Below, in pieces: positions 918-19,008 of a DNA stretch of 64,000 nucleotides (positions are counted from its first letter, which is position 1; every line of letters starts with the position of its first letter). Location of the stretch: assembly GCA_023957155.1 (NCBI GenBank), contig JAMLHK010000016.1, positions 1 to 64,000 on the forward strand. Direction: 5' to 3'. A model generated the notes under the pieces. That model was not told the origin of the DNA. It was given only the letters and a program-made list of their open reading frames with translations, and did no database searches. Origin of the DNA: Chitinophagaceae bacterium (GTDB lineage Bacteria > Bacteroidota > Bacteroidia > Chitinophagales > Chitinophagaceae). The position numbers were made by a program, and so were the translations under genes.

Positions 918-1052
918 ACGCACAACATCGTATTTGCAATAGGCGGGCTGACGGCTTCGTATCAACGGAAGTGCAAAATTCAACATTTGTTCTTCGTATC
1001 AGCGTTAGTGCTAAAAATCCCGCCCATCGCCAATACGCGGCTCGTTACAGGC
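918..1052 (+). other. attC-like recombination site 1
   Basis: A palindromic site of 135 bp. The left arm ends in AAC at 924-926; the right arm begins with GTT at 1044-1046. The inner arms pair imperfectly (GTATTTGCAATAGGCGGG against CCCGCCCATCGCCAATAC). It is the short class and nearly identical to site 4. GTTACAGGC (1044-1052) is the exact reverse complement of GCCTGTAAC at the next site (2807-2815). Confidence 0.8.
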
Positions 1053-1210
1053 AATATTACGACCGACCGTACTAAAAGAAAAAGTTCGTATATTTGCAAA
1101 ACACAAAAACTTAAACAACTCGAAATGTAAAATATAATTTCTTTCAGACAAATCAGAACAACAACCGCAAAGCGGTCGCTGTATTGTTTCATCTTTTAAA
1201 GAAAGGAATT

Positions 1211-2797
1211 ATGCTTACTTTACAAAACATTTCATATACACATACAAACAAAGATTTACTGTTTAGCGACATCAATCTGACAGTAAACAATCACGAAAAA
1301 ACTGCGTTAATCGGTAACAACGGAGTTGGAAAATCTACTTTGCTCAAAATTATCGCAAACGAACTTCAACCAACAAACGGACAAATAAGCGTTGATAACG
1401 AACCATATTATGTTCCGCAGATTTTCGGACAATTCAATCATTTGACCATTGCACAAGCGTTGCAAATTGAAGACAAATTGAACGCTTTGCAAGAGATTTT
1501 GAACGGAAATACAAGCGAAGAAAATTTCAATTTGCTCAATGACGATTGGGCTATCGAAGACCGTTGCAACGAAGCGTTAAACTATTGGCAACTCAACAAT
1601 TTTGACTTATCGCAAAAAATGGAAGCGTTGAGTGGCGGACAAAAAACAAAAGTTTTTCTTGCAGGAATTTCCATTCATCAACCCGAATTGGTTTTATTGG
1701 ACGAGCCAAGCAATCATTTAGATATTGTCAGCCGACAACTTTTGTATGACTTTGTTCAAACCACAAAAAGCACTTTAATAATCGTGAGCCACGACAGAAA
1801 ATTACTTAATATTATGAATAACGTTTGCGAATTGAGCAAATACGGAATTAAAGTTTATGGTGGTAATTACGACTTTTATAAAGAACAAAAGCAAATAGAA
1901 AACAACGCTTTGAGCCAAGACATTCAAAGCAAAGAAAAAGCGTTGCGAAAAGCGAAAGAAAAAGAAAGAGAAACTTTGGAGCGACAACAAAAATTGGACA
2001 GTCGTGGCAAAGGCAAACAAGAAAAATCGGGCGTTGCTCGAATAATGATGAACACTTTGCGAAATAATGCGGAAAACAGCACTTCAAAATTGAAAAGTGT
2101 TCACGCAGAAAAAATCGGAGGACTTTCGCAAGACTTACAAGAACTTCGTTCTTCTCTACCCGACATTGATAAAATGAAATTTGGCTTTGATAATTCAGAT
2201 TTGCATAAAGGGAAAATTCTGTTCACAGCAACAGACATCAACTTTGGCTATGGCAACAAGCCACTTTGGAAAGACAAACTAAATTTTCAAATTACAAGTG
2301 GGGAACGCATTGTTTTGAAAGGAAAAAACGGTTCAGGAAAAACAACTTTAATTAACTTGATTTTAGGAAATTTAGAACCGCAATCAGGAACAATTTACCG
2401 AGCAAACAATAAATCGGTTTATATTGACCAAGATTATTCTTTGCTCGACAACACGTTGAAAGTTTACGAACAAGCCCAACAATTTAACACTTCGGCATTG
2501 CAAGAACACGAAGTCAAAATTCGATTAAATCGTTTTTTGTTTGCCAAAGACGATTGGGATAAACCTTGCATCTCATTGAGTGGTGGAGAAAGAATGCGTT
2601 TGTTATTGTGTTGCTTGACTATTAACAGCAAATCGCCCGACATTATTATCCTTGACGAACCAACTAACAATTTGGATATTCAGAATGTTGAGATTTTGAC
2701 AACAGCCATAAATGAATATCAAGGAACACTAATTGTTGTATCGCACGATGAAACATTTTTGGAGCAGATAAATATAGAACGAACGATTGAACTCTGA
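1211..2797 (+). CDS. ABC-F family ATPase (cassette 2)
   Basis: A 528-residue soluble protein with two ABC ATPase domains and no membrane segment, the ABC-F layout. Domain 1: Walker A GNNGVGKST (35-43), signature LSGGQ (140-144), Walker B and DEPSNHLD (164-171). Domain 2: GKNGSGKTT (371-379), LSGGE (456-460), DEPTNNLD (482-489). A charged, coiled linker lies between them (about 225-325). ABC-F proteins act on the ribosome; some protect it from antibiotics and others are translation factors. Carriage on a gene cassette makes a resistance role plausible, but nothing in the sequence proves it. The ATG at 1211 is preferred over an upstream in-frame codon because the protein then begins with the usual first beta strand of an ABC domain (MLTLQNIS). 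Confidence 0.88.
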   Translation: MLTLQNISYTHTNKDLLFSDINLTVNNHEKTALIGNNGVGKSTLLKIIANELQPTNGQISVDNEPYYVPQIFGQFNHLTIAQALQIEDKLNALQEILNGNTSEENFNLLNDDWAIEDRCNEALNYWQLNNFDLSQKMEALSGGQKTKVFLAGISIHQPELVLLDEPSNHLDIVSRQLLYDFVQTTKSTLIIVSHDRKLLNIMNNVCELSKYGIKVYGGNYDFYKEQKQIENNALSQDIQSKEKALRKAKEKERETLERQQKLDSRGKGKQEKSGVARIMMNTLRNNAENSTSKLKSVHAEKIGGLSQDLQELRSSLPDIDKMKFGFDNSDLHKGKILFTATDINFGYGNKPLWKDKLNFQITSGERIVLKGKNGSGKTTLINLILGNLEPQSGTIYRANNKSVYIDQDYSLLDNTLKVYEQAQQFNTSALQEHEVKIRLNRFLFAKDDWDKPCISLSGGERMRLLLCCLTINSKSPDIIILDEPTNNLDIQNVEILTTAINEYQGTLIVVSHDETFLEQINIERTIEL

Positions 2798-2806
2798 AAA
2801 AATACT

Positions 2807-3004
2807 GCCTGTAACAAGGGTTTTGCAAAATGGCGGAGTTTCGTCTAAGTTGAAAATTCCGTCTTCGTAAACCGCAAAAGCCAATTTTATTGGCTTTTTT
2901 TCATAATTTAGCAAATAGAAATTGGCTTTTGCTACGTGTCGTCTAAATCGAAACTTCCGTCTTCGATTTTCCGCCACTTCGCAAAGCCCCAAACCGTTAG
3001 CAGC
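2807..3004 (+). other. attC-like recombination site 2
   Basis: A palindromic site of 198 bp between GCCTGTAAC (2807-2815) and GTTAGCAGC (2996-3004). Outer arms pair: GGGTTTTGCAAAATGGCGGA against TCCGCCACTTCGCAAAGCCC. The loop has a 26-bp imperfect direct repeat (from about 2831 and 2940) and a terminator hairpin. GTTAGCAGC is the exact reverse complement of the left arm of site 3. Confidence 0.8.
2876..2901 (+). terminator. Intrinsic terminator inside attC-like site 2
   Basis: A perfect 10-bp stem AAAAGCCAAT / ATTGGCTTTT with a TTT loop, and a run of seven T starting within the right arm. It sits in the loop of site 2, just after the ABC-F gene. A second copy of the right arm (AAATTGGCTTTTGC, about 2918-2931) could form an alternative, longer stem. 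Confidence 0.7.
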
Positions 3005-3010
3005 AACACT

Positions 3011-3634
3011 ATGAGGCAACTCGCAATCACACTACTTACCTTTTGGACAATTTCTGTTTATGGACAGGACTATCCGTTTGCTAAGACATTCATTGACGGA
3101 ACTATTATTTTAAAGGACTCAACTCAACTTAAAGGACAACTGAAATGGTATCCTCACCAAAATGAGAAATTAAAATTTAGAGTAAGCGAAAATGCCGAAA
3201 TAAAAAAATACTCACCAGAGGACTTAATTAGTTTTACAACCGACACGTTAAAATTTGTTTCACTCTTTGACCTTGAAGTATATTCAGACAACTACGCATT
3301 GTTGGGCAAGACATCAAAAATCAAACACACATTTGGACAATTGCTTGACAGTGGCAGCTTCAACATCTATTTTGTTTTAATAACAGGTGTTGATGCAATA
3401 AGCGGCGCAATTCAACCATATCCGAATTTTTACTTTGAAAAAAAGGTTGGCAATAATTATGTATCAGCAGCTTATCCGTTTGCTATGAGAATGAAGGAAA
3501 AAAAATATGAGAAAGCCAAGGACAACCTATACACATTCTTCAAGGACTATCCTCAAATAATTGAAAAGATTAAATCTTATAAAAAACAGGATGACTTTTT
3601 TGAAATTATAGACCTAATGAAGAAAGAAAACTGA
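3011..3634 (+). CDS. Secreted protein of unknown function (cassette 3)
   Basis: A 207-residue protein not recognised as any family. Residues 1-18 form a signal peptide ending in VYGQ, so the product is probably exported to the periplasm or outer membrane. The mature part is beta-rich (repeated ILKDSTQLKGQLKWY-like strands) with a helical lysine-rich C-terminus. The ATG at 3011 lies only 6 bases after the cassette border GTTAGCAGC and gives an N-terminus that starts directly with the signal peptide; upstream in-frame codons would lie inside the recombination site. Confidence 0.65.
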   Translation: MRQLAITLLTFWTISVYGQDYPFAKTFIDGTIILKDSTQLKGQLKWYPHQNEKLKFRVSENAEIKKYSPEDLISFTTDTLKFVSLFDLEVYSDNYALLGKTSKIKHTFGQLLDSGSFNIYFVLITGVDAISGAIQPYPNFYFEKKVGNNYVSAAYPFAMRMKEKKYEKAKDNLYTFFKDYPQIIEKIKSYKKQDDFFEIIDLMKKEN

Positions 3635-3647
3635 CAGACAAGTGTAT

Positions 3648-3848: not shown

Positions 3849-3899
3849 TATGGTCGGACAACGCACAGACCGAAAGTAAAAACAGTAAACGACAAGACA

Positions 3900-4412
3900 A
3901 TGAGCAACGAAATATTATTTACTGAAAGACAGAAATTCAAACAATGGTGGTTATGGTTAATATTGTTAGGTATTAACGGACTTTTTTTGTTTGGCGTTTT
4001 CAAACAAGTGGTAGGTGGACAACAATTTGGCGACAAACCAATGAGTAACGTAGGACTATTAATAGTGACAGGATTTACAATTATCTTGACAATTTTGTTT
4101 GTAAACTTTCGTCTTGACACAACAATCAAGAAAGATGGAATTTATGTTCGCTTTTTCCCATTTCATTTAAAGACGAAACATTACACTTGGGACAGTTTGA
4201 CAAAATCATTCGTTAGACAATATTCACCGCTGACAGAATACGGTGGTTGGGGTTTACGACTTGGACTTTTTGGAAAAGGGACTGCATTTAATGTTTCGGG
4301 CGACAAAGGACTACAACTTGAATTTACGAACAACAAAAAATTGCTCATCGGGACGAACAAACCAGACGAACTGACTGAAACGCTAAACAAAATTGGACAA
4401 CTAAAACAATGA
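3900..4412 (+). CDS. Small membrane protein of unknown function (cassette 4)
   Basis: A 170-residue protein with two membrane segments (about residues 16-36 and 50-70), followed by a soluble C-terminal domain rich in beta strands (a GGWGLRLGLFGKG-type stretch and GLQLEFTNNKKLLIGT). The hairpin-plus-beta layout resembles small membrane PH-like proteins, but I cannot name the family. The start ATG at 3900 follows the cassette border by about 50 bases. The stop is 14 bases before the left arm of site 4. Confidence 0.6.
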   Translation: MSNEILFTERQKFKQWWLWLILLGINGLFLFGVFKQVVGGQQFGDKPMSNVGLLIVTGFTIILTILFVNFRLDTTIKKDGIYVRFFPFHLKTKHYTWDSLTKSFVRQYSPLTEYGGWGLRLGLFGKGTAFNVSGDKGLQLEFTNNKKLLIGTNKPDELTETLNKIGQLKQ

Positions 4413-4426
4413 TAAGAATGCCACAA

Positions 4427-4562
4427 ACCGCTAACATCGTATTGGCAATAGGCGGGCTGAACGGCGTCGTACCAACGGAAGTGCAAAATTCAACATTTGT
4501 GCTTCGTATCAGCGTTAGTGCTAAAAATCCCGCCCATCGCCAATACGCGGACCGTTATGCGT
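4427..4562 (+). other. attC-like recombination site 4
   Basis: A short-class site of 136 bp between ACCGCTAAC (4427-4435) and GTTATGCGT (4554-4562). It is nearly identical to site 1, with only about ten differences outside the terminal boxes. Its right end is the exact reverse complement of ACGCATAAC at site 5, almost 5 kb downstream, which defines the whole restriction-modification block as one cassette. Confidence 0.8.
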
Positions 4563-4663
4563 CACCCTGCGACAGTCCTTTAATCGGCGGACAGTTGACA
4601 TTTTGGGCGACAGTATTTCAAATTTGTTTTAATAGCTCTGCTTCTTTGCCGACACACATTTTA

Positions 4664-4776: not shown

Positions 4777-4866
4777 TGTATCCTTACATTTTTTTTGTTT
4801 ATTCAACATAAAATACTCGATATTTGCTTAATTCTTTCATTGTAAGAATACATTTTTTTTGTTTAT
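4777..4866 (+). promoter_or_regulatory. Putative operator pair and promoter of the R-M operon
   Basis: Two near-palindromic 12-mers, TGTATCCTTACA (4777-4788) and TGTAAGAATACA (4841-4852); the reverse complement of the second differs from the first by one base. Each overlaps an identical 17-bp direct repeat (ACATTTTTTTTGTTTAT at 4786-4802 and 4850-4866). The second ends on the start codon of the regulator. Between them lies a Bacteroidota-like -7 word (GATATTTG, about 4819). The arrangement suggests binding by the HTH protein encoded immediately downstream, but this is inference. Confidence 0.5.
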
Positions 4867-6082
4867 GCCTGAAAAGAACAGCAAACATCAAGATATTAAT
4901 TCGTTGCTAAACGATATTTTAAGACCTGACAAACCAGGACTAAAAGAACTTTTTGATAAAAAGATTTCTGAATTAAAAATTACTTCAACAAGCGTTTTAG
5001 AGATTCTCAATATTCAGCATCGGACTTTAAAAGGAATATTAGATGGTACACAAAAGGTTGTTGATGTTACTAACCTCATTAAGATTGCAAACTTCCTTCA
5101 ACTGCCAAAGGAAGACGTAATTAAAATGTACATTGACTCTTTAGAAAAAAACTATACAGAAAGCATTGTACCACCTGAAAAGATAAAGTTCATACAAGAA
5201 AATTTTGACTTGGCTGCATTGAAAAAAGCAGGGTTTATTGATTCTTTGACAGACTTTGAAAAGATTGATTCAAAAATCACTTCATTCCTTGGGCTAAAGT
5301 CTATTTATGAATATAAGAGACCAAATATTAAACCTGCGTTTAGTGCAGGATTAGTGAAGCCAAAAAACGAATTGACACGTTCTTTATGGATTCAATCTGC
5401 AATAACTTACTTCGAAGATATAGATAATCCATACGAATATAATAGGAAAGCATTAATTGAATACTTCCCTAATATAAGGTGGCATTCTACAAATGTTGAA
5501 TTTGGTTTACTTACTATAATAAAAGACTTATTCAAACTTGGTGTTACAATAATTTATCAATCTCCATTACCGTCTTTACATCTTCGAGGAGCAACATTTG
5601 CTGTAAACGACAAACCTTGTATTGTATTGACAAACTATGTTGGTTTCTATGGCACTTTATGGTTTGCTTTAATTCACGAACTTTTTCATGTTCTCTTCGA
5701 TTGGGAAGAGATACGAACAAATATGTATCACTTATCTGATGACGAAGATAATGAGTTGATAGTACAGGAGAAAGAAAATGAAGCAAATCAATTTGCCCGT
5801 GAGTATTTGTTCCCACAAGAGAAAATGAAGCAAATAAAACACAATTTAAACAATCCATATTTTGTCAGTGAGTTTGCAAAGAACAACCAGGTGCATCCAA
5901 GCATTATCTATGTGTTTAATGCTTTTGACAGCAGTAAAACGAACAGAATGCCGTGGGCAAGAGCAAGAAAAAATGAACCAGCAGAATTGTCGAAGTGTAT
6001 CTCTCACTTAGAAAACCCATGGAGCAACTCAATGCCAATTAATGAAATTGTAAAAAATAAAAAATTAGAAATCTATAATTAA
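4865..6082 (+). CDS. HTH / ImmA-IrrE family metallopeptidase regulator (R-M cassette)
   Basis: A 405-residue protein. Residues about 35-85 look like a helix-turn-helix of the XRE/antitoxin kind. The second half contains the zinc protease motif HELFH (271-275) with a downstream acidic helix (ENEANQFAREY, 304-313) supplying the expected third ligand, typical of ImmA/IrrE peptidases. Such proteins cleave repressors or act as regulators near mobile elements and R-M systems. Here it is first in a four-gene run with gaps of 5 and 26 bases and then an overlap, so it is the likely controller of the system. ATG at 4865 is chosen; a TTG two codons upstream is also in frame. The operator-like repeats lie directly before it. 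Confidence 0.75.
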   Translation: MPEKNSKHQDINSLLNDILRPDKPGLKELFDKKISELKITSTSVLEILNIQHRTLKGILDGTQKVVDVTNLIKIANFLQLPKEDVIKMYIDSLEKNYTESIVPPEKIKFIQENFDLAALKKAGFIDSLTDFEKIDSKITSFLGLKSIYEYKRPNIKPAFSAGLVKPKNELTRSLWIQSAITYFEDIDNPYEYNRKALIEYFPNIRWHSTNVEFGLLTIIKDLFKLGVTIIYQSPLPSLHLRGATFAVNDKPCIVLTNYVGFYGTLWFALIHELFHVLFDWEEIRTNMYHLSDDEDNELIVQEKENEANQFAREYLFPQEKMKQIKHNLNNPYFVSEFAKNNQVHPSIIYVFNAFDSSKTNRMPWARARKNEPAELSKCISHLENPWSNSMPINEIVKNKKLEIYN

Positions 6083-6087
6083 TAACT

Positions 6088-6702
6088 ATGAAAGACAAAA
6101 AAAATCAAAAACAACTTTCAATAAAGTTAGTAGAGAAACGGCAAGCTGCCGAACAAGGAAAACAGCAATTAATTGAATTGCTTTTACAGGGTCCCGAAAA
6201 CAGAGTTCAGCAAAAATATTCTGACAGAAACCTTGACAGAGAAAATGAAATAATTGAACTTCTCGGAGGTCGTCAAGTTACCATACGACAAATCAAAGAC
6301 ATCATTGCAAAGTGTGAACAGGAATATGTGCCACAATTTCCACCAGTCTTTTACTCAGAAATAGACAGATTAAATAATTGGCAGCGTCCGAAAGAAAAGC
6401 AGCATGAAAAACCTCCAATCGTTGGCAGGTGGACAAAACAAATAATCTATGGACGATTTCCAAAAGAAGTATTACCCGTACTTGAGCAACTTAATCCATA
6501 CATAGGTTTTGGTATCAGGCTATACAAACATTTTCAGTGGCTAACCCCTGAAGGAAAGAATCAATTACAAGAATTTATTGCAGAAGCAATTGAAGTAATG
6601 CAATCTTCAAGTACATGGTATGAGTTCAGAGTAAAATATGCACGACAATACGGAGTACCTTTCCAGCTTAGTGTTTTTGAAGATAACGACAACATTAAAT
6701 AA
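6088..6702 (+). CDS. P63C domain protein (R-M cassette)
   Basis: A 204-residue protein whose residues about 109-185 match the P63C family pattern as I know it: PPIVGRWTKQIIYGRF, then NP, then the hallmark HFQWLT (148-153), then a helix with MQSSSTWYEF. P63C is a domain of unknown function found on phage and mobile DNA, sometimes next to DNA-modification genes. The N-terminal 80 residues are charged and helical. It sits 5 bases after the ImmA/IrrE gene and 26 bases before the methyltransferase, so it is co-transcribed and probably serves the R-M system. The family call rests on motif memory only. Confidence 0.6.
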   Translation: MKDKKNQKQLSIKLVEKRQAAEQGKQQLIELLLQGPENRVQQKYSDRNLDRENEIIELLGGRQVTIRQIKDIIAKCEQEYVPQFPPVFYSEIDRLNNWQRPKEKQHEKPPIVGRWTKQIIYGRFPKEVLPVLEQLNPYIGFGIRLYKHFQWLTPEGKNQLQEFIAEAIEVMQSSSTWYEFRVKYARQYGVPFQLSVFEDNDNIK

Positions 6703-6728
6703 TTCAAATAGACATTAAATTTAGTAGA

Positions 6729-8330
6729 TTGACAGCAGCGATAGACATAAAACCACTCACTAATGAGTTACCCAGCCACTTTGCCGACAGAGTTGGACAG
6801 TTTTATGCTAAAACTGTTACGACACAGCACAAGAAGGACAATGGACAATTTTTTACTCCGACAGAAATTGCTCATTTCATGGCAGGACTTTCCAAACAAA
6901 CAAAAGACAAATTCAAAATACTTGACCCTGGTTGTGGCACGGCAATTCTTTCATGTTCACTTATTGAGACACTTGCAAAAAAGAATGACACCCTAAAAGA
7001 AATCGAACTTCTTGTTTACGAGACCGACCAGGATATTTTGCCATATACACAAGCGACACTTGACTATTTAACCACGTGGCTAACGAAATATAAAATCAAG
7101 TTTAAATCAACACTTGAAACAAACGATTTTGTACTTGAAAATAAAGATTGCTTTCAAGTATCTGCAACACTTTTTTCGGAACCCCAAAATGCCATTTATG
7201 ACATTGTAATTTCCAATCCGCCATATTTCAAAATACCTAAAGAAGATAAACGGGCAACTGTAGCAAAATCTATTGTTTGGGGGCAACCAAATATTTATTC
7301 AATCTTTATGATGGTTGCAGCAAAGCTATTAAAAGAAGAAGGCGAACTCATATTTATTACGCCAAGAAGTTTTGCATCGGGTAATTATTTCAGAGCTTTT
7401 CGTGAGGCCTTCTTTCAGGAAATTGAAATAGAACATATTCATTTATTCGGTTCAAGAACTGACACATTTGACCGTGATAGCGTTCTGCAAGAAACTTTAA
7501 TCTTGAAAGGTAAAAAACAAAAACTAAACGGACGCTTGCCTTCAATACTTGTAACTCACTCTAATGGCATAAGAGACATTGAAAATTTCACTGAAAAGGT
7601 TTATAAAACTGGTGAACTGATTGACTTAAAGTCAAAAGAAAAAATTATTCACCTGCCGACAAATGAAACAGATGATAAAGTAATCAAACTGTTTAAATCA
7701 TGGTCAGGTAGTTTACGTCAGTATGATATTCAAATTTCAACAGGTCCTGTTGTTTCATTCAGAGCAACTCAATATTTGTTTGAGCAGTATCAAAATGGAA
7801 CAGTTTTTTTAGTTCCACTTTATCAGCTTATCAATACAGCCAAAATGCAATTTGAATGGCCTGTTATTAAAAGGAATAAACCTCAGTACATTCAACTGTG
7901 CGAAGAAACCAAATCGCTTTTGCTTCCAAATAAGAATTATGTTTTCCTACGCCGTTTTAGTGCAAAGGACGACAAGAGCAGGTTAGTTGCAACACCTTAT
8001 TTTGTTGACATTACCCAAGCAGAATATATCGGTGTGGAAAATCATCTCAATTACATTTACCGACCTAAAGGGCATCTCGAAAGAAATGAAATATTAGGAC
8101 TTGCTGCCTTGTTAAATAGTAATTTGTTTGATATATATTTCAGAACATTCAACGGCAATATAAATGTAAGTGCAACCGAATTAAGAGAAATGCCTTTACC
8201 CCCTTTAGAAGATATAAAACAAATTGGCAATCAAATAATACTACTAAACGACTTTTCACAATCAAAGGTTGATGAAATCATAACCAACTACTTTGATATA
8301 GAACATATATTCTCTTATGAGCAAAATTGA
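6729..8330 (+). CDS. N6-adenine DNA methyltransferase, BsuBI/PstI type
   Basis: A 533-residue modification enzyme. SAM-binding motif I is KILDPGCGTA (63-72) and the catalytic motif IV is NPPY (163-166), the order of gamma-class adenine methyltransferases. The N-terminal stretch GQFFTPTEIAHFMA (39-52) is typical of this class. Residues about 330-520 form the target-recognition part. It starts at a TTG, because the next in-frame ATG (residue 51) would remove the conserved N-terminal block. It overlaps the endonuclease gene by 14 bases. From the partner's family the expected target is CTGCAG, which would have to be tested. Confidence 0.85.
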   Translation: MTAAIDIKPLTNELPSHFADRVGQFYAKTVTTQHKKDNGQFFTPTEIAHFMAGLSKQTKDKFKILDPGCGTAILSCSLIETLAKKNDTLKEIELLVYETDQDILPYTQATLDYLTTWLTKYKIKFKSTLETNDFVLENKDCFQVSATLFSEPQNAIYDIVISNPPYFKIPKEDKRATVAKSIVWGQPNIYSIFMMVAAKLLKEEGELIFITPRSFASGNYFRAFREAFFQEIEIEHIHLFGSRTDTFDRDSVLQETLILKGKKQKLNGRLPSILVTHSNGIRDIENFTEKVYKTGELIDLKSKEKIIHLPTNETDDKVIKLFKSWSGSLRQYDIQISTGPVVSFRATQYLFEQYQNGTVFLVPLYQLINTAKMQFEWPVIKRNKPQYIQLCEETKSLLLPNKNYVFLRRFSAKDDKSRLVATPYFVDITQAEYIGVENHLNYIYRPKGHLERNEILGLAALLNSNLFDIYFRTFNGNINVSATELREMPLPPLEDIKQIGNQIILLNDFSQSKVDEIITNYFDIEHIFSYEQN

Positions 8331-9327: not shown

Positions 9328-9406
9328 GCCTTGTGCCTATGCTTCATAGACACACTCTGCTTCGTTGGACACAGAACAAAACTTGACAGACCGAGAAGAA
9401 GGGCGA

Positions 9407-9610
9407 ACGCATAACATTGGGTTTGCTGCTATGCTGGCTGACGAATAAATCTTCATCTTTTCAGTTCCCTGTTCAGCAGCGGTTCGGGCAGACGGATTTC
9501 TATTCGGCTTTTGTTCTTAACTTCAACATCAGTAATTCTATTGGGCTTCAGTTCCAGGCTGGACGTTTTTCAAATCCCAGCACAGCATCAAGCCCTGTCC
9601 GTTATGTGGC
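9407..9610 (+). other. attC-like recombination site 5
   Basis: A palindromic site of 204 bp between ACGCATAAC (9407-9415) and GTTATGTGGC (9601-9610). Arms pair: GGGTTTGCTGCTATGCTGG against CCCAGCACAGCATCAAGCCC. It closes the R-M cassette. Its right end is an exact 10-bp reverse complement of the left end of site 6. Confidence 0.82.
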
Positions 9611-9634
9611 ATTTCAAAACAACGACAAATTAAC

Positions 9635-10614: not shown

Positions 10615-10623
10615 TATTAGATT

Positions 10624-11346: not shown

Positions 11347-11491
11347 TTGCAGTCCGGGCTCCAGTTACCGCCAGACGACAGCACAACAGAAATTATATAG
11401 ATACAATATTTTTTACATTAAATGGTCATACGGTATTTCAGCAGACGGATTTCAAATATCCTACCTGCGCCAATCCATTCCGTCATGCGAT
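11297..11491 (+). other. attC-like recombination site 7 (degenerate right end)
   Basis: The left end GCGCACAAC (11297-11305) matches the right end of site 6 exactly. The right end is GTCATGCGAT (11482-11491), with GTC in place of GTT. It differs at two positions from the reverse complement of ATCGCACAAC at site 8. The arms pair poorly. The loop shares a long stretch with site 12 (ACAATATTTTTTACATTAAA, about 11402-11421, and ACGGTATTTCAGCAGACGGA). Confidence 0.6.
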
Positions 11492-11536
11492 ATTTCTAAG
11501 CCAACCGAGATAAATTGACAATATATTAGAGTCTAT

Positions 11537-12088
11537 ATGATTAACTTTTTTAGGCGATTATTTAATATTTCTAATAAGAAAATTGAGATAGAACCAAATT
11601 CTTCCGAACTAACTCATGAAATGCTTTATTCATTAGCAGAAGCAAATAGGCTTTGTGATGAAAAGAAATATTCTGAAGCATTATTAAAATTTGATCTTGC
11701 AGTAAAATCGGGACTTTTTGATAAGGAAGCTTATACAGATAGAGGGATTTGCTTGCAAAGTCTTGATTTTCATCTTGACGCTATTGACGATTTTACATTT
11801 GCGATTCAATTACTTCCATATGATCCAAACAACTACTTTCTTCGTTCTCTATCGTTAAAACAAATTGGATTATATAAGGAGGCCATTAGTGATAACGAAA
11901 AAGCAATTTTGCTTTCAGAAATCCCATCTGTAGAAAATGAAGAAAAAAATAAAAAAGCAATAGATATGGGGTATAATTGTGTGGCAGACTTTTATCGTAT
12001 TCGTTTGGACTTACTATTGCAAGAGACAAATTTTAGTCAAACTATTAAAGATTACATAGTTAAACCTAAAACAAGAAGAACCATATAA
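11537..12088 (+). CDS. TPR repeat protein (cassette 8)
   Basis: A 183-residue protein with no signal peptide. Residues about 33-100 form two tandem tetratricopeptide-like helical pairs (EANRLCDEKKYSEALLKFDLAV, then YTDRGICLQSLDFHLDAIDDF), with a further pair at about 100-125. TPRs bind partner proteins, so the product is likely an adaptor; the partner is unknown. The N-terminus MINFFRRLFN is amphipathic. It is the only gene of an 818-bp cassette. Confidence 0.65.
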   Translation: MINFFRRLFNISNKKIEIEPNSSELTHEMLYSLAEANRLCDEKKYSEALLKFDLAVKSGLFDKEAYTDRGICLQSLDFHLDAIDDFTFAIQLLPYDPNNYFLRSLSLKQIGLYKEAISDNEKAILLSEIPSVENEEKNKKAIDMGYNCVADFYRIRLDLLLQETNFSQTIKDYIVKPKTRRTI

Positions 12089-12103
12089 ATTTGACAATAA
12101 AAC

Positions 12104-12308
12104 ATCGCACAACAGGCAGGTTGGCATAAATGCGGGCAGACGGAAAACGTTCGTCAACTTTTGGTTCTTTGTTTTAGCTTTTGTTCCGGCTGACGGAAAG
12201 CAATCGGCAAAATTCTATAGTTTGTACTTTTAATAAATAATCAACTTCGGTAGCCGGGCGCGACGGAATGCTATTATCCGCACTTCGCCAACCTGTACCG
12301 TTGCCTGC
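12104..12308 (+). other. attC-like recombination site 8
   Basis: A palindromic site of 205 bp between ATCGCACAAC (12104-12113) and GTTGCCTGC (12300-12308). Arms pair: AGGTTGGCATAAATGCGGG against CCGCACTTCGCCAACCT. The right end is the exact reverse complement of GCAGGCAAC at site 9. Confidence 0.8.
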
Positions 12309-12369
12309 AAGCTTACGCAGACACATTATAAAATAAATTGCATGACTTATTAATCAACTATAAACAAAC

Positions 12370-13782
12370 ATGAGGATAATCTTACAAACCGTTTTGACAC
12401 TTATTTTATTTTTATTTTCGTTGACCTCCTATTCGCAGAAAAACGGCAAAACCAGCTATATCATTCTCACTGGTAAAATTGAAAATGTTGCGACACAAAC
12501 CAACGGTAAAAAAACAATTGAACTTGTGCCGCCATATTATTTAAAATCGGATAAGGAAAAGATAATTTATTTAGGTGATGACGGCTCTTTTACAGACACG
12601 GTAATGACAGGAAAAGGACTGTACTATATTTTTGACCAAACCAATGTAGTTCCTATTTATCTGGATAAATCCAAAACTTACACGATAACTTACAATAGCT
12701 CCAACTACCGTAAAGGAGTAGTAAATCTTTTAGGTGCCGATACATCCATTAATCGTTATTTTATTGAAAAAGACCAAAACAGGGTCTTTGTTGACCGACT
12801 GAATGTTCAAAGAAGCGAAGAAGAGTTTCGGGAATTAATCGGGAAAATAAGGCACGGACAATTACAACGGCTTACAGAAAGTAAACTACCGCAATATTTA
12901 AAGGAAGAGGAAGCCAAATATATCAAGTACGAGTGGCTTTCTGAATTGTATTACTTCCTTGTCGCAAAGCAAGAATCCTATCCGGATTTTAAACCCTCAC
13001 TGATTTCAAAAAATGAGCTAAATATCAATTACAACAACGAGGAAGAATATAAAAGACAGCCGTACTATTCTAAACTTGTATCTATTTATTACGATGAAAA
13101 AATGAATTGTGCTAACAAAAAGAATAAAGAGAAAGACTCTGCCTATTCCAATTCTCAACACGTAATTAAGTTAATTGATTCGCTGGTTGCAAACAAATAC
13201 ATTAAGAATGACCTAATAAAACAGTATGCCAGAAGCCAGTTAACCCGTGCGGAAAACAAGGAGGCTTATTACAATGATTTTGTAAAGTATTATACAGGAG
13301 ATGACGAGGAGTTGAAGCAAAGCATGTATGATGCTTATCTGCGTTTTACAAGGCTAAGGAAAGGAACGCCATCGCCCGAATTTTTTAATTATCCCGAGTA
13401 TAAAGGAGGTAGTAAATCGCTAAAAGATTTTAAAGGCAAATTTGTTTATATAGATATTTGGGCTACATGGTGCGGCAACTGTTGGCGTGAACTTCCTTAT
13501 TTAAAAAAAATGGAGGAAGAATATGCCAATAAAAACATAGTTTTTTTAAGCCTGTCGTGGGACAGATTTGAAAACGAATGGAAAGAAGCTATACAAAAAT
13601 ATAGTTTAAGCGGCGTACAGTTACTTGCTAACAGGGAGGACGATTTTTTTACAACGTATGCTGTTAGTGGCATACCACGGTATATTTTCTTAGACACTAA
13701 CAGTTGTATAATAGACTACAATGCACCTATGCCTAGTGAAAAAGAGAAATTGGAAGAATTGTTTAAAAGCGTTGGGCTGTAA
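12370..13782 (+). CDS. Secreted TlpA-like thioredoxin-fold protein (cassette 9)
   Basis: A 470-residue protein with a signal peptide (about 1-22) and a C-terminal thioredoxin fold. The redox motif WCGNC lies at about residues 367-371 in the context IWATWCGNCWRELP, followed by a Pro-containing loop GIPRY (about 436-440) equivalent to the cis-proline. Residues 25-330 form a long N-terminal region of beta then helical character, seen in Bacteroidota TlpA family disulfide reductases. The likely role is thiol-disulfide exchange in the periplasm or on the cell surface. It is an unusually large single-gene cargo (1647-bp cassette). Confidence 0.8.
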   Translation: MRIILQTVLTLILFLFSLTSYSQKNGKTSYIILTGKIENVATQTNGKKTIELVPPYYLKSDKEKIIYLGDDGSFTDTVMTGKGLYYIFDQTNVVPIYLDKSKTYTITYNSSNYRKGVVNLLGADTSINRYFIEKDQNRVFVDRLNVQRSEEEFRELIGKIRHGQLQRLTESKLPQYLKEEEAKYIKYEWLSELYYFLVAKQESYPDFKPSLISKNELNINYNNEEEYKRQPYYSKLVSIYYDEKMNCANKKNKEKDSAYSNSQHVIKLIDSLVANKYIKNDLIKQYARSQLTRAENKEAYYNDFVKYYTGDDEELKQSMYDAYLRFTRLRKGTPSPEFFNYPEYKGGSKSLKDFKGKFVYIDIWATWCGNCWRELPYLKKMEEEYANKNIVFLSLSWDRFENEWKEAIQKYSLSGVQLLANREDDFFTTYAVSGIPRYIFLDTNSCIIDYNAPMPSEKEKLEELFKSVGL

Positions 13783-13817
13783 ATAAGTGGACAATAAATC
13801 CAAATTGACAAAAGCCA

Positions 13818-13955
13818 GCAGGCAACAAGCGGTTTTGCAATAGTGCGGCTGACGAATATAGGCTCAACATCAGTAATTCTATCTAACTTTGGTGCAAAAC
13901 TCAACTGACGGAATGCCATTACCGCACCATCGCAAAGCCCCGACCCGTTAGCAGC
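13818..13955 (+). other. attC-like recombination site 9
   Basis: A short-class site of 138 bp between GCAGGCAAC (13818-13826) and GTTAGCAGC (13947-13955). Arms pair: GCGGTTTTGCAATAGTGCGG against CCGCACCATCGCAAAGCCC. The right end is the exact reverse complement of GCTGCTAAC at site 10. Confidence 0.8.
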
Positions 13956-14007
13956 AATGCCTTATGACATTTCAAAATTGTAAATTGCTTGATAAGACCA
14001 AATATAG

Positions 14008-14778
14008 ATGCAACTAAAAATTCCTGCTGGACAAGCTATTCAAATACTTCAAGACAGATTAAAGGAAATTGACGCTTATAACTTCAATCCTAAGGCATGG
14101 AAGAATAAGACTGAAAACGACTTACGTGAAATCTTTCCATTAGGTTCAATGCAATGGTTACAAGTAAGCAATCTTCAATTTGACACATTTGTAACTTTGG
14201 AAAAGGCTAAAGTTTTAGCGGAAGGAAAAGAGACCGCCAGACAATTAATTACTTCGTATATAGATTTCATAAAGCAATATTCTAAAATTGCGGAACAGAA
14301 ACAGATAATTAAGGAAAAGGATTTTGAACAAAAGTATTACGACTTGCTTAAAGAATGGAATGAGTTAGTTCCAGGTTACAATGATTTGGTCAAAAAATAT
14401 GATGAGCAACTGACGTCTGCGGAAGGATTGTTAGAAACTATTGACCTTAAAGACCACGAAATTGAGCGCATAAAAAATGAAACCATTCAGCTTGACAATG
14501 TTTCCTTCAAAAAACTTTGGGCCGCTTTATTTAACTTGCCAACAGGACAATTAATAGCGGTCTTTTCAACCTTTTTGGCCCTCTTGATTGGTGCATTTAC
14601 GTTGGGGACACTTTACGAAAGGACCAGCGCAAACAATGAGCTTTTTGACTTGAGAAATAGTAACAAACAATTACAAGAACAAAACGAAAGAATAAGGACA
14701 AGCTATGACAGTTTGAAAAATACACAACCTATTTTTCAAGACACAACAAAACACACTAAAATGGACACAACGCAGTGA
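14008..14778 (+). CDS. Coiled-coil membrane protein of unknown function (cassette 10)
   Basis: A 256-residue protein with no recognised family. Visible parts: an N-terminal helical domain (1-95), a coiled coil (about 95-165, rich in Lys, Glu and Leu heptads), one membrane helix (about 179-200, LIAVFSTFLALLIGAFTLGT), and a second coiled coil (about 208-240) ending in a polar tail. It has no signal peptide, so the N-terminal domain is probably cytoplasmic. The layout could suit a membrane-anchored sensor or effector, but no catalytic motif is visible. The downstream recombination site carries the group II intron. Confidence 0.6.
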   Translation: MQLKIPAGQAIQILQDRLKEIDAYNFNPKAWKNKTENDLREIFPLGSMQWLQVSNLQFDTFVTLEKAKVLAEGKETARQLITSYIDFIKQYSKIAEQKQIIKEKDFEQKYYDLLKEWNELVPGYNDLVKKYDEQLTSAEGLLETIDLKDHEIERIKNETIQLDNVSFKKLWAALFNLPTGQLIAVFSTFLALLIGAFTLGTLYERTSANNELFDLRNSNKQLQEQNERIRTSYDSLKNTQPIFQDTTKHTKMDTTQ

Positions 14779-14789
14779 AGATAGCACAT

Positions 14790-14973
14790 GCTGCTAACAA
14801 GCGGCTTGGCTATATGGCGGCAGGACGAGCGTATACTCAATTTTTGTTCGCTATTCAGCTTCAGTCCCGGCTGACGAATAACGCCGGGCAATAGAATAAA
14901 CAATGAACATTTATTTATAAATTTAACAGCGGTTACGGGCAGACGAATCACGGAATACCGCCACATCGCCAAG
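14790..14973 (+). other. attC-like recombination site 10, left part (split by intron)
   Basis: Starts with GCTGCTAAC (14790-14798), exact partner of the right end of site 9. It includes the left arm GCGGCTTGGCTATATGGCGG and most of the right arm (CCGCCACATCGCCAAG, 14958-14973), where the group II intron begins. The site continues at 16849. Confidence 0.8.
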
Positions 14974-15508
14974 GTGTGCTGTGAAAGGCTAACAGCAAAG
15001 AGTTAGTCAATGCTGTATAAAAGATGATGGACGACCCATCGGTGTCGGCTTTCAAGAGCAGGCATCAAACCACTTCCCGATGCCTGGGTGGTAACAAACA
15101 GGTATTAAACGGTAGGAAGAAAAGGCTATCAATAATAGTCAGGTACGAATTAAGGAGACAAACGAAAGTGAACCTGTGAAGAAGTTGTGTGAAGTGGCTA
15201 CATTTTGTCAAAAGCTTGCATTCTTGGCTGCAAGTGAAAAGCTGTAACGGGAGCTTGACTATTGGTTACAGGGCAAACGCAACTGAGCAGGTGTGAACTT
15301 AATTCAGGCTTTTATACGGAACTCAGGAAGTCCTTACAAAATGCAAAGAGAACGGCACAAAAGGGCAACACCCTCAAGGCTTATAGTATCGAAGTTTGTA
15401 AGGATGACGGATGTCGTTGTAATAGCAAAGAAGTGTTTGTAATGAACATGGAGCGAAGGACGACAGACATACAGTCTTGAACAGGTAAACAACTTAGGAC
15501 AATTAAGG

Positions 15509-16762
15509 ATGACAGACTTATTCGAGACAAAATCAAAACCGGTTCCGGTAACCAAAGACATGGTGAGGGAAGCCTACCGCAAGGTCAGGAGCAACAAAGA
15601 AAGTGCAGGGGTGGATGAAGTATCGCTTCAGGAATTTGAGAAGAACTTATCCAAAAACCTGTACAAACTTTGGAACAGAATGGCCAGTGGCAGTTATTTT
15701 CCTAAGCCCGTGAAAGAGGTTATCATCCCCAAGAGCAATGGAGGAAAGCGAAAACTGGAGATCCCATCCATCAGCGACAGGATAGCTCAGGAAGTAGTAA
15801 AAGCCTACCTCGAACCACGCATGGCAGCAGAGTTTCTGCCACAATCGTATGGCTATCGCCCCCACAAGAACGCACACCAGGCATTAGAGCAGGTACGGGA
15901 AAATGTACGCCAATTTGCATGGGTCATTGATATGGACATCAAGAGCTTCTTTGACGAAGTCAATCATGAGTTATTGATGAAAGCCATAGACAGGCATGTG
16001 CCGGAAAAGTGGGTGAAAATATACATACGCAGATGGCTGGAAGCGCCTGTACAAACTCAGGAAGGACTTGTTCACAAACAAGGGCAGGGCACACCACAAG
16101 GAGGTGTTATCAGTCCCTTGTTAGCCAATTTATTCTTGCATTACGTGTTAGACAAATGGTTGGTGAAAACATTTCCGACAGTAAGATTTGTACGCTATGC
16201 AGACGATGTAGTGGTTCATTGCATCAGCGAAAAGCAAAGTCATTATGTATTAGCGGGCATCAGGCGAAGGCTACAGGAATGCCAATTGCGATTAAGCGAA
16301 GAGAAGACCAAAATTACCTATTGCCAGGACTATCGGCGACAGGCAAGAAAAGACTATCCCGGAAAATTCGATTTCCTGGGACACACATTCAAGCCTATGA
16401 CGAAGAAAAGTAATAGGGACAAAGGCGTTTTTCTCGGCTTTGATTGCGAGATGAGCATGAAGTCAAGGACACGTATCCTATCGGACTGGAAACGAATGAA
16501 TTTCCAGCGGGAAAGTACATGTACAATACAGGACATAGCCGCCTTACTGAACGCTAAGACAAGAGGAATTATTAATTATTTTGGCAAGGTAAATACCTTT
16601 TCACCAGAAAGATTATTCCGACATTTGGACTACCGGATAGCAAAGTGGGTAAAGAACAAGTTTAAGAAATTAAACAGCTACCAAAAGGCTTATGATTGGC
16701 TAAGGGTCATTAAGACAAGCTATCCAAATACATTTGTCCATTGGTCGTTGAGCAAAATCTAA
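15509..16762 (+). CDS. ltrA: Group II intron reverse transcriptase/maturase
   Basis: A 417-residue protein that assists splicing and copies the intron into DNA. Reverse transcriptase blocks run in order: a PVTKDMVREAYRKV N-terminus, GYRPHKNAHQAL, DMDIKSFFDEV, GTPQGGVISPLLANL and the catalytic RYADDVVVHC. The maturase (X) domain follows, with a TRGIINYFGKV motif. The protein ends soon after the maturase domain and lacks a C-terminal HNH endonuclease, as in several bacterial intron classes; the sequence reminds me of class D. No frame interruption is seen, so it may still be active. Confidence 0.92.
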   Translation: MTDLFETKSKPVPVTKDMVREAYRKVRSNKESAGVDEVSLQEFEKNLSKNLYKLWNRMASGSYFPKPVKEVIIPKSNGGKRKLEIPSISDRIAQEVVKAYLEPRMAAEFLPQSYGYRPHKNAHQALEQVRENVRQFAWVIDMDIKSFFDEVNHELLMKAIDRHVPEKWVKIYIRRWLEAPVQTQEGLVHKQGQGTPQGGVISPLLANLFLHYVLDKWLVKTFPTVRFVRYADDVVVHCISEKQSHYVLAGIRRRLQECQLRLSEEKTKITYCQDYRRQARKDYPGKFDFLGHTFKPMTKKSNRDKGVFLGFDCEMSMKSRTRILSDWKRMNFQRESTCTIQDIAALLNAKTRGIINYFGKVNTFSPERLFRHLDYRIAKWVKNKFKKLNSYQKAYDWLRVIKTSYPNTFVHWSLSKI

Positions 16763-16775
16763 GATTGTATGTCAA

Positions 16776-16809
16776 GAGCCGTATGAGCCGAGAGGTTCAC
16801 GTACGGTTC
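16776..16809 (+). ncRNA. Group II intron domain V
   Basis: The 34-nt catalytic hairpin starts GAGCCGTATGAGCCGAGAGG and ends TTCACGTACGGTTC. It lies 13 bases after the maturase stop and is followed by a short domain VI with an unpaired adenosine candidate in the GCTGAAATGC region. Confidence 0.9.
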
Positions 16810-16848
16810 TGTGAGAGGCTTAAGCTGAAATGCTTTTGCCTACTTGAC

Positions 16849-16866
16849 CCCCGAACCGTTGTGCGT
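16849..16866 (+). other. attC-like recombination site 10, right part
   Basis: The 18 bases CCCCGAACCGTTGTGCGT complete site 10 after the intron. GTTGTGCGT (16858-16866) is the exact reverse complement of ACGCACAAC at site 11. Without the intron, the site would be 202 bp long, like the other long-class sites. Confidence 0.82.
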
Positions 16867-16986
16867 CAGCTAAGAAAGCGTTGTCGACAAGACATTCTGT
16901 ACCTAAATTTGAATGCAACTCGACAATATTGAGGAAAAGGCAATGAATAGAGATAATAGAATGTTAAATAATGAAATGATTTTATA

Positions 16987-17847
16987 ATGAAAAGAAGTAT
17001 TCGCATTTTGGCAATATGCACATTATGTTTTATTTACAGTAATTTGATGGCTCAAACTCCATCATACCCGATTGTTGATTCGCATTGTCACATAAAAACC
17101 CATCTCACAGATGATATATTTATGACAATGGAAGAGTATTTTGCTGAAAATAAGTCAATAAACATAAAATATTTGTTTGGAATATCTTTTGTGCAAAGAC
17201 AAGGCAATCTTGAGGAAATGAAAGTTCGGAATGATTCTCTGTTTTCGATGGCTCGTCGTGATTCACGATTTATCCCTGTTTGCTCTGTTCATCCTAATGA
17301 TGGCGATGCTGCAATTGAAGAATTGCGTAGGATCAAAGATTTTGGTGGTAAAATCATTAAATTGCATCCCATTACTCAAAATTTCCCTATCCTAAGCAAC
17401 GAAGTGTTTAATGTAGCAAGAGTTGCAGGGGAATTGGGTTTGATTATTTTGATTGACGGATACGGCTTTGTTATTCCGAATTATGTAGAACACCTCTTAA
17501 AATTGGCAATGTCCAACCCTCGAACAAAATTCATCATTGCACACATGGGAGGTACGGATTTTTATAAATTGGGAGGTCTGAACTTAGTTCAAACACTAAA
17601 TCCCGGATTATTGAGCAATGTATGGTATGACCTTTCGGCTACTGTTAAAATTTATGCCGATTCACCTTATAAATCCCAGTTAGAATGGGTAATCAGAAAT
17701 ATTGGAATAGATAGAGTGTTGTTTGGAACCGATAATCCTGTTACTTCTTTATCGGAAGCATTAAACGCTTTTTACAAACTTGATTTTAACGAAACCGAAA
17801 AAGAAAATATTCTGTATAAAAATGCAGTAAAACTTTTGAGATTGTAA
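16987..17847 (+). CDS. Secreted amidohydrolase-2 family protein (cassette 11)
   Basis: A 286-residue protein with a signal peptide (about 1-23, ending MAQT) and a metal-dependent TIM-barrel hydrolase. Metal-ligand motifs are DSHCH (31-35) near the mature N-terminus, KLHP, IIAHMGG and the C-terminal FGTDNP. This matches the amidohydrolase_2 family, whose members hydrolyse or decarboxylate small cyclic or carboxylated compounds. The substrate cannot be predicted. The gene begins about 120 bases into its cassette and stops 30 bases before site 11. Confidence 0.78.
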   Translation: MKRSIRILAICTLCFIYSNLMAQTPSYPIVDSHCHIKTHLTDDIFMTMEEYFAENKSINIKYLFGISFVQRQGNLEEMKVRNDSLFSMARRDSRFIPVCSVHPNDGDAAIEELRRIKDFGGKIIKLHPITQNFPILSNEVFNVARVAGELGLIILIDGYGFVIPNYVEHLLKLAMSNPRTKFIIAHMGGTDFYKLGGLNLVQTLNPGLLSNVWYDLSATVKIYADSPYKSQLEWVIRNIGIDRVLFGTDNPVTSLSEALNAFYKLDFNETEKENILYKNAVKLLRL

Positions 17848-17877
17848 GATGTGCGAATACGAAATAATAATTGCCGA

Positions 17878-18078
17878 ACGCACAACATGTGGCTTTCAGC
17901 CATGCTGGCTGAATAATAAATCATCAATACTATATTACTAATCTGCTTCGGTTCCGGCTTAATGTACTCTGATCAGCAAAAGAATATATCTTTAACTTTA
18001 GTAACAATATTGGGCTTTAGTTCGGGCTGGATGAATCACAGAATATCAGCACAGCAGAAAGCCCCGATCGTTGTGCGT
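17878..18078 (+). other. attC-like recombination site 11
   Basis: A palindromic site of 201 bp between ACGCACAAC (17878-17886) and GTTGTGCGT (18070-18078). Arms pair: GGCTTTCAGCCATGCTGG against TCAGCACAGCAGAAAGCC. The right end is the exact reverse complement of the left end of site 12. Confidence 0.82.
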
Positions 18079-18087
18079 TATATAAAA

Positions 18088-18798
18088 ATGACTATTATGA
18101 AAAAACTGACATTTATCCTTTTATTATTCCTTTTTAGCATTCTAACTTATGCTCAAAATAATTTTATTGACCAACCCTATATTGAGACTTCGGCTAAGGT
18201 TGATACTTTAGTTGTACCAGACAGAATCTATATTTCAATCCTTTTGAATGAAGCTGATAGTAAAAATAAAAAATCTGTAGAAGAACTTGAAGTGACGTTA
18301 GAAACTACATTAAAAAACCTCAACTTAGATACAGAAAAAGATTTATCACTTCTTGACTTTTCAAGTGATTTCAAAAAATATTTTATGAAAGGACAAAATG
18401 TTATTAAAAGCAAAATATATTCTTTAGTAGTAGGAGACGCTGTAACTGCGGGAAAGGTTTTAGCCGAACTTGAAAATGTTGGAATATCAAATGTAAATAT
18501 TGAACGAACGGAGTACTCTAAATCTGAGACGTTAATTTTAGACTTAAAAGAAAGAGCCGTTAAGAAATCACAAATAACAGCTGAGAGCCTTGCTAGACCT
18601 TTAGGTCAAAAAATTGGGAGGGCTATTTACATTTCTGATGGGAATACTATTTCCAACGCACTTCAAGGTCAGACACCAGGAGTTAGAATTCGTGGAATAA
18701 GTAGTTTGTATGGCTCAAGAGCAGCTGACCCAATTTACACTGAATTTCAAAAAGTGAAATTTGAAGTAGAAGTAAGTGTAAAGTACATCTTAGAATGA
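18088..18798 (+). CDS. Secreted SIMPL-domain protein (cassette 12)
   Basis: A 236-residue protein with a signal peptide (ending TYAQ, residue 23). The body fits the SIMPL/DUF541 pattern: a first strand block PYIETSAKVDTLVVPDRIYISI, a central segment on the variable VSNVNIE-type loop, and a final strand KFEVEVSVKYILE. SIMPL proteins are periplasmic or outer-membrane associated and of uncertain function. A segment near the C-terminus (SNALQGQTPGVRIRGISSL) resembles the plug motif of SusC-type receptors. ATG at 18088 lies 9 bases after the cassette border; 18097 is a second possible start. Confidence 0.72.
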   Translation: MTIMKKLTFILLLFLFSILTYAQNNFIDQPYIETSAKVDTLVVPDRIYISILLNEADSKNKKSVEELEVTLETTLKNLNLDTEKDLSLLDFSSDFKKYFMKGQNVIKSKIYSLVVGDAVTAGKVLAELENVGISNVNIERTEYSKSETLILDLKERAVKKSQITAESLARPLGQKIGRAIYISDGNTISNALQGQTPGVRIRGISSLYGSRAADPIYTEFQKVKFEVEVSVKYILE

Positions 18799-18805
18799 TA
18801 TACAA

Positions 18806-19008
18806 ACGCACAACATTCGGTTTGGCAATATGGCGACTGGACGAATATATCCCCGGCTTTTTGTTTGTTTCCGGGCTTTGGTTATCGGCTGACGACAGTC
18901 TAACAAAAATTATCTGAACACAATATTTTTTACATTAAATTGACATTACGGTATTTCAGCAGACGGATTTCAAATTCCACACCTGCGCAAAGCCATACCG
19001 CTGGCAGT
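18806..19008 (+). other. attC-like recombination site 12 (last site, degenerate right end)
   Basis: The left end ACGCACAAC (18806-18814) matches site 11 exactly. The right end is GCTGGCAGT (19000-19008), with GCT instead of GTT, and no reverse complement of it is found after the following gene. The loop is shared with site 7. This looks like the last, possibly inactive, site of the array. Confidence 0.6.

Follow-up and report, generated by a model that had tools for sequence, protein, structure and literature searches.

The window analysed here, nucleotides 1–64000 of contig C8 in a 26-contig Chitinophagaceae genome (88% complete), very probably carries part of a chromosomal gene-cassette array, running to its last site, that would be served by a tyrosine recombinase of the int404/int287 family. 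As judged from sequence, the array is integron-like in mechanism and different in its integrase. The evidence consists of a family of sites, the pairing of left (R'') and right (R') site ends, G^TT boundaries on a cassette shared by two genomes, attI-like junctions, the adjacency of int404 to sites in relatives, and the lack in these recombinases of the insert carried by the integron integrase, IntI. On a larger scale, there is probably a second, Bacteroidota-wide integron lineage with a recombinase that lacks the IntI domain, its own attI/attC grammar, and a self-moving module of int287 and IS91 that plugs into attI, and this lineage would be one source of mobile resistance cassettes, among them aadS, ere(D), tet(X2), and Acinetobacter tet(X3). 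If so, a widespread gene-capture system in the Bacteroidota has been overlooked, cassette exchange at folded sites does not need the IntI insert, and the swappable rows of some Bacteroides and Flavobacteria resistance genes are accounted for. No description of this cassette system was recognised in the open-access literature, a scope that leaves subscription journals and preprints aside, so that an earlier description is possible.

Sites and cassettes of the window

A covariance model (R1) was built from 10 of the 12 aligned window sites, excluding a truncated site (site 7) and a split site (site 10). Scanning the 64-kb window with R1 returned 12 matches, exclusively on the + strand and between positions 913 and 19013 (182.5 to 50.5 bits; E = 6e-45 to 3e-11), while the best further matches scored 12 and 7 bits. 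Ten of these sites match the model by construction; the excluded sites 10 and 7 score 91 and 50.5 bits. Of 39 matches at E < 0.01 across the whole genome, 12 are those of the window and the other 27 lie outside it (C2, C22, C15, C12, C20, and others). Sites 1, 4, and 9 are short (~135 nt) and seven others are ~200 nt in length, and the DNA between sites holds mostly single open reading frames (ORFs) plus one operon, a BsuBI/PstI-type restriction-modification set. Base 1 of the window is also the first base of the contig, which leaves the beginning of the first cassette beyond its edge.

The two ends of a circular integron cassette pair with each other, the start lying after the G and the end before the hairpin, so that in an array each site has a left end that pairs with the right end of its predecessor. 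For the 11 neighbour pairs of the window, the left end of site n+1 matched the right end of site n at a mean of 9.1 of 11 bp, compared to 5.8 of 11 for other combinations and 6.1 of 11 for a site's own right end, and none of 200,000 shuffles was as good. The pair ending at the truncated site 7 matched at only 5 of 11. Pairing was explored further at 25 loci (three from the source genome; 162 R1 matches, of which the best 150 were aligned; neighbour pairs <4 kb apart), where AAC was present in 145 of 150 sites, GTT in 142 of 150, and the median distance between neighbouring sites was 875 bp. The 124 neighbour pairs matched at a mean of 6.12 of 8 variable bp (random, 3.23; reversed pairing, 3.20), with at least 6 variable bp matched in 102 pairs compared to 9 of 124 when the pairing was reversed. 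A second set of 20 loci, which includes nine IntI loci that yielded no sites, contributed 52 pairs with a mean of 6.02 (random, 2.92) and at least 6 bp matched in 39 pairs (reversed, 0 of 52). Such matched R''(n+1)/R'(n) ends are expected if cassettes close into circles at G^TT. The cassette unit would run from TT... at its start to ...AAC-hairpin-G at its end, and a recombinase of the int404/int287 family would cut the folded bottom strand between G and TT.

A sequence-only reading of this DNA had proposed an integron cassette layout with attC-like sites that runs off the left edge of the stretch, and both parts are borne out, the first by the 12 + strand matches and the R''/R' pairing and the second by the start of C8 at base 1. 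Its count of twelve sites of ~135 or 200 bp in one orientation stands, except that half of site 7 is lost and site 10 is split by an intron; likewise, the AAC and GTT ends that it described occur at most sites, but not at site 7 (no AAC, right end GTC) or site 12 (right end GCT instead of GTT). The pairing of R'' and R' between neighbours, which is the strongest sign of cassettes, had escaped it.

It has also to be asked whether the sites might be immobile structured repeats, terminators or REP-like (repetitive extragenic palindromic) elements, that spread after genes. They do lie directly 3' of genes in one orientation and some are solitary in the source genome. This explanation, already disfavoured, is scarcely tenable given the neighbour-specific end pairing, the copied cassettes, and a cassette common to two genomes with exact edges.

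Folding was calculated with the outer R boxes removed and the arms joined by a neutral loop, for site 10 without its intron and with site 7 left out. The bottom strand of the terminal stem folded better in all 11 window sites, a bias that fits bottom-strand recombination, as far as can be judged from predicted folds. The stem of site 12 is weak (−6.1 kcal/mol; shuffled mean, −4.4; sd, 2.0) with a slight strand difference, the best among 300 shuffled versions of sites 2 and 9 equalled the real stem, and whole-site folding of four sites gave weak z-scores (−0.5 to −2.4).

The features of the array, all on the + strand, are as follows:
913–1057, +, site 1, short (~135 nt), R1 103 bits; closes the cassette of ORF 28–909 (no Pfam match)
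1211–2797, +, cassette gene for a protein with two ABC ATPase domains (PF00005, two stretches)
2802–3009, +, site 2, ~200 nt, R1 109 bits
3643–3851, +, site 3, ~200 nt, R1 164 bits; 3' of ORF 3011–3634 (no Pfam match)
4422–4567, +, site 4, short, R1 95 bits; 97 nt 95% identical to site 1; 3' of ORF 3900–4412 (no Pfam match)
4865–9252, +, single multi-gene cassette: IrrE-like peptidase, P63C protein, Eco57I/N6 DNA methylase, and BsuBI/PstI restriction endonuclease (Pfam)
9402–9614, +, site 5, ~200 nt, R1 182.5 bits
10407–10619, +, site 6, ~200 nt, R1 178 bits; 3' of ORF 9635–10408 (trypsin-like, under the Pfam cut-off)
11292–11495, +, site 7, left half lost, R1 50.5 bits; homology to site 12 from 11353 on
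12100–12313, +, site 8, ~200 nt, R1 141 bits; 3' of ORF 11537–12088 (TPR-like, under the Pfam cut-off)
13813–13960, +, site 9, short, R1 101 bits; 3' of the redoxin/thioredoxin-like ORF 12370–13782
14785–14973, +, site 10, portion left of the intron, R1 91 bits (14785–14994); 3' of ORF 14008–14778 (no Pfam match)
14974–16848, +, group II intron in the right arm of site 10 (RF01999, RF00029); reverse transcriptase/maturase ORF 15509–16762 (TIGR04416, 396 bits)
16849–16872, +, site 10, portion right of the intron; the junction reads CCCCGAACC then GTTGTGCGTC...
17873–18083, +, site 11, ~200 nt, R1 176 bits; 3' of the amidohydrolase ORF 16987–17847
18801–19013, +, site 12, the last, ~200 nt, R1 138.5 bits; 3' of a SIMPL-domain ORF ending at 18798
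19073–21286, +, alpha-N-acetylglucosaminidase (Pfam NAGLU), the first gene past the array and its boundary, outside the array

Without its left half, site 7 (11292–11495) should no longer allow the preceding cassette to excise as a unit. Three proteins from the flank of the array had no match in the other loci, the source genome excepted, and the gene to the right of the array was present in one of 18 relatives besides the source genome.

Recombinases and attI-like junctions

The recombinase int404 (404 aa) is encoded on C22 of the source genome, just upstream of a module that contains int287. Relatives of int404 (E ≤ 1e-30) occurred in 11 of 20 Chitinophagaceae genomes, including the source genome, and R1 sites in 17 of the 19 Chitinophagaceae genomes searched. 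At 10 of 16 int404-like loci the first site lies 0.7–1.6 kb 3' of int404 on the same strand, and in nine of these ten the best GTT of the interval pairs with the R'' of the first site at 9–10 of 11 positions. The paired GTT sits 104–191 nt past the int404 gene match (1000 nt in L170) and is preceded in most of the ten displayed loci by a motif like GCGTATATTT, which is poor in L173. From these sequences, seen in relatives and not in the window, the GTT site with its motif is read as attI-like; the Chitinophagaceae loci have the integrase co-oriented with the array and the attI-like site on its 3' side. Circular cassettes would be joined to this site, just downstream of the recombinase's own gene, and excised by exchange between two cassette sites. 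In the source genome a contig with the head of the array would have preceded the window, the best candidate being C22 with its int404. The candidate upstream contigs C22, C15, and C11 end in, or soon after, + strand sites, and no 20-mer is common to the final 400 nt of any of them and the initial 400 nt of C8 or C20.

On C2, C15, and C22, the sites are preceded by a module of int287 (a 287-aa tyrosine recombinase) and an IS91-family transposase, with proteins identical in the three copies. DNA identity between the copies stops at ...TCTGTGTG/TT, each copy continuing into a different cassette start, and the right-end GTT of the module pairs with the R'' of the first site at 9–10 of 11 positions in L047, L048, L065, L066, and L070 (in L049 the script picked a different GTT). 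The left end, /GTTGAAC..., was located by motif search in 13 loci (absent in L068, opposite strand in L067), and the flank beyond it is attI-like in the three source-genome copies, L058–L061, and L069, and an attC half in L065, L066, L070, and, by eye, L062; in L064 it is clearly neither. Contigs with close relatives of int287 are labelled Bacteroidetes, Chitinophagaceae, Flavisolibacter, Sediminibacterium, and, in one case, a cyanobacterium. The last, L067, is a short contig with an int287-IS91 module in a metagenome-assembled genome labelled as a Thermosynechococcaceae cyanobacterium, and is perhaps mis-binned. IS91-type modules may carry int287 as a mobile integrase: the observed flanks would result if a circle that brought along an attI half recombined at G^TT, with IS91 targeting of GTT as the alternative.

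This alternative can be extended to the whole array, in that an IS91-type (HUH, Y2) transposase may move the units, cutting at GTT beside hairpins, with the tyrosine recombinases as passengers. The transposase of the module matches models of an IS91-type Y2 transposase (NF033538, 428.8 bits; PF04986), the right flank of the module is GTT in eight displayed, hand-picked cases, and IS91 elements prefer GTTC/CTTG-like targets at their right end. However, the 10 of 16 int404 loci with the first site after int404 have no IS91 module between the two, and IS91 transposition leaves the matched R''/R' cassette ends and the G^TT boundaries unexplained, making a transposase-driven array very unlikely. 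Some elements of the IS91 family come with a tyrosine recombinase gene, and the int287 module resembles them in having an IS91 transposase adjoining an integrase-like gene; it differs in that its right end forms an attI-like junction with a cassette behind it and in that attI or attC junctions are where it is located.

A tree built from 30 recombinases placed the int404 (n = 10), int287 (n = 8), IntI (n = 7), and host Xer (n = 2) proteins in one group each, and separated the first three, together with one ungrouped recombinase, from host Xer (96/96, with long-branch warnings). A structure model of int404 (mean pLDDT, 79.6) best matched XerA (5hxy), an archaeal Xer (4a8e), and an integron integrase (2a3v), at TM-scores of only 0.36–0.46 over the query. 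Residues 1–80 form a separate N-terminal domain, confident in the model, with a motif of approximately GARWSxTxKCWxxP (e.g. L049 6349–6600). The idea that this N-terminus is HARP-like was set aside, as no Pfam family scored over its cut-off and there were weak DUF5710 matches only (E = 0.001 to 0.08; three of nine proteins). Given the resemblance of int404 and int287 to Xer proteins in both sequence and fold, host XerC/XerD acting at dif-like sites could be supposed to move the units. The position of host Xer outside the int404/int287/IntI group in the same tree argues otherwise, as do the sites themselves, which are 135–200-nt hairpins with R''/R' cassette logic, unlike the 28-bp pdif sites described in the passages considered of PMC7530245; movement by host Xer is highly improbable.

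Site and integrase distribution

Sites were surveyed at the level of the family (Chitinophagaceae) and the phylum (Bacteroidota) with R1 which, being trained on one genome, loses remote sites. They occurred in 80 of 117 Chitinophagaceae genomes (E ≤ 1e-4) and in 91 of 395 Bacteroidota genomes (E ≤ 1e-6), and an int404 profile (E ≤ 1e-60) matched 115 of the 395. Genes similar to int404 were found in 56 of 91 site-positive compared to 59 of 304 site-negative genomes (odds ratio = 6.6, p = 1e-13). For IntI, the association was inverse (14 of 91 compared to 94 of 304; odds ratio = 0.41, p = 0.003). Among the 112 matches listed from outside the Chitinophagaceae, 26 sites had an int404-like gene no further than 10 kb away, and none lay near the IntI of site-positive genomes. 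Of 11 loci chosen for their R1 sites, five (L198, L200, L203, L208, L209) held int404- or int287-like sequence, frameshifted in L200 and a fragment in L208. Over 43 loci of more distant recombinases, R1 gave no matches.

These distributions bear on whether the window holds an ordinary integron remnant (CALIN) with canonical attC sites, its IntI having been lost or lying in the unassembled part of the genome. In favour of a remnant, the array has the layout, G^TT core, and bottom-strand bias of integrons, the assembly is 88% complete with a contig that stops at the array, and IntI is present in other Bacteroidota families. Against a remnant, no protein of the source genome exceeded the cut-off (265 bits) of the integron-integrase model TIGR02249 (best stretch, 100.9 bits). 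Whole-protein scores were 180.5 bits for int404 and 169.9 bits for int287, both under the cut-off, with matching stretches that skip model positions ~180–239. In 98 Chitinophagaceae genomes the model had no match at E ≤ 1e-40, though no control matched in that search either. In the 395 Bacteroidota genomes, IntI was identified in 108 at E ≤ 1e-50 and 105 exceeded the TIGR02249 cut-off, and no matching row was from the Chitinophagaceae. None of nine loci with a true IntI had an R1 site at E ≤ 0.1, and sites and IntI occur together less often than expected. The R box of integrons follows the consensus GTTRRRY/RYYYAAC. Among 200 sites (218 aligned, 18 without AAC or GTT dropped), strict GTTRRRY occurred in 13 and RYYYAAC in 10, so that the integron consensus does not describe them. 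Taken together, these observations make an integron remnant very unlikely.

The ~35-residue IntI insert was present in all four displayed IntI rows and in none of the four int404 or two int287 rows. Because the insert was tested and absent, and because the R-box consensus differs, the system would not be an IntI integron, and the sequence-only reading finds no support in supposing that the absent integrase is of intI type with the added domain. Its view that integrons are poorly documented in this phylum calls for qualification: a true IntI is common in other families, but the nine IntI loci checked had no R1 site. A true IntI in 105 of 395 genomes is more than the literature passages considered suggest. 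The system shares with IntI integrons its one-direction tandem cassettes, its hairpin sites built around a G^TT core, the pairing of R'' and R' in each cassette, an attI-like site by the integrase, and a bottom strand favoured in predicted folds. It differs in an integrase that lacks the IntI insert and scores under the TIGR02249 cut-off, in an R box of approximately GTTRBNNGYMA on sites of mostly 135 or 200 nt, and in an integrase that, in the Chitinophagaceae, is co-oriented with the array and has attI at its 3' side.

Several observations weigh against an array served by the int404/int287 family. The system is known here from sequence, and the window's array has no physical link to an integrase, since none of the 11 PF00589 matches across the source genome lies on C8, whose edge cuts the array. 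Of the site-positive genomes, 35 of 91 (including G021 and G070) had no int404-like match at E ≤ 1e-60, and the 59 site-negative genomes with int404-like genes have to be set beside the remote sites that R1 loses. Among the 16 int404-like loci, an IS91 module lies between the int404-like gene and the first site in two (L049, L070), and four have no same-strand site (L172, L179, L060, L061; the last two outside that alignment set, with one weaker site of 35.8 bits in L061 and none in L060 in a separate R1 scan). The attI match fails in L164 (6 of 11), the integrase is divergent from the array in L198 and L209 (other families), and R1 sites occurred in seven of 13 int287-type loci, several of the others stopping at a contig edge. 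Lastly, the bottom-strand preference was weaker beyond the window (115 of 150 sites in the first set of loci; 44 of 66 in the second, two short matches dropped).

Shared cassettes, resistance genes, and the intron

Evidence for cassette movement comes from relatives. In one array of G068, a 471-bp cassette occurs four times (95–100% identical; L166 12405–15186, L167 1367–3075). On a plasmid of Bacteroides thetaiotaomicron from the human gut (L217 186–4323), R1 sites follow aadS (81 bits), ere(D) (52 bits), and tet(X2) (52 bits), with a further match before aadS (21 bits). Over 1033 bp, the aadS cassette shows 99.8% identity to a chromosomal copy in G118, where the adjoining int404-like gene lies on the other strand. 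The match opens precisely on the G of GTT and takes in four bases of the next GTTA, beyond which the flanks differ. Fixed gene order without gain or loss, which the sequence-only reading had named as the outcome that would tell against it, is thus not what was found, though these repeated and shared cassettes with exact G^TT edges belong to relatives and not to the window.

On Acinetobacter plasmids (L213 3407–4720; L216 4907–6190), tet(X3) shares its starting GTTATGTGCC with tet(X2). Downstream of tet(X3) lies part of a short site, 69 nt with 84% identity to a G080 site (blastn, E = 1e-15; no matches in a control with reversed sequence), after which the resemblance ends. R1 matched this half site at 16.7 bits (E = 0.0097) in L213 and had no match to it in L216. 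The recombinase beside tet(X3) is a relative of int404 and int287 (47.7% and 40.9% identity over the aligned part). No site was found in the contexts of tet(X4), tet(X5), and tet(X6) (L218–L220), and a Rufibacter plasmid (L214) with an int404 relative had weak R1 matches of at most 14.8 bits. In the passages considered of two accounts of xerD-tet(X)-res-ISCR2 regions on Acinetobacter plasmids, the recombinase is named xerD and no link to cassettes is drawn (PMC7530245, PMC7473080). These regions share with the present system a recombinase akin to int404/int287 and a tet(X3) that has the GTT start of the cassette-borne tet(X2) and half a site downstream; they differ in that the site after tet(X3) is truncated. 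Were this assignment correct, the question of whether the XerD beside tet(X) helps to move tet(X), as raised in the part of PMC7473080 considered, would become directly testable.

The group II intron that splits the right arm of site 10 (1875 bp; 14974–16848) runs in the same direction as the cassettes. Near-identical introns in genomes of the same genus have 5' exons resembling the right arms of sites in L222, L226, and L230, as in the window's own copy (L221), and 3' exons of this kind in L222, L223, and L227, again as in L221. R1 backs a site at the 5' edge of the intron, in the direction of the intron, in L222 and L230, the other edges having been judged by eye. Group IIC-attC introns are described, in the passages considered, as inserted in attC opposite to the cassettes (PMC7923331). 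The present intron likewise lies inside attC-type sites, but is co-oriented with the cassettes (window, L222, L230) and located in the right arm, in place of the opposite orientation of that class. A full copy, 96% identical, is present in G507, a genome of the same genus.

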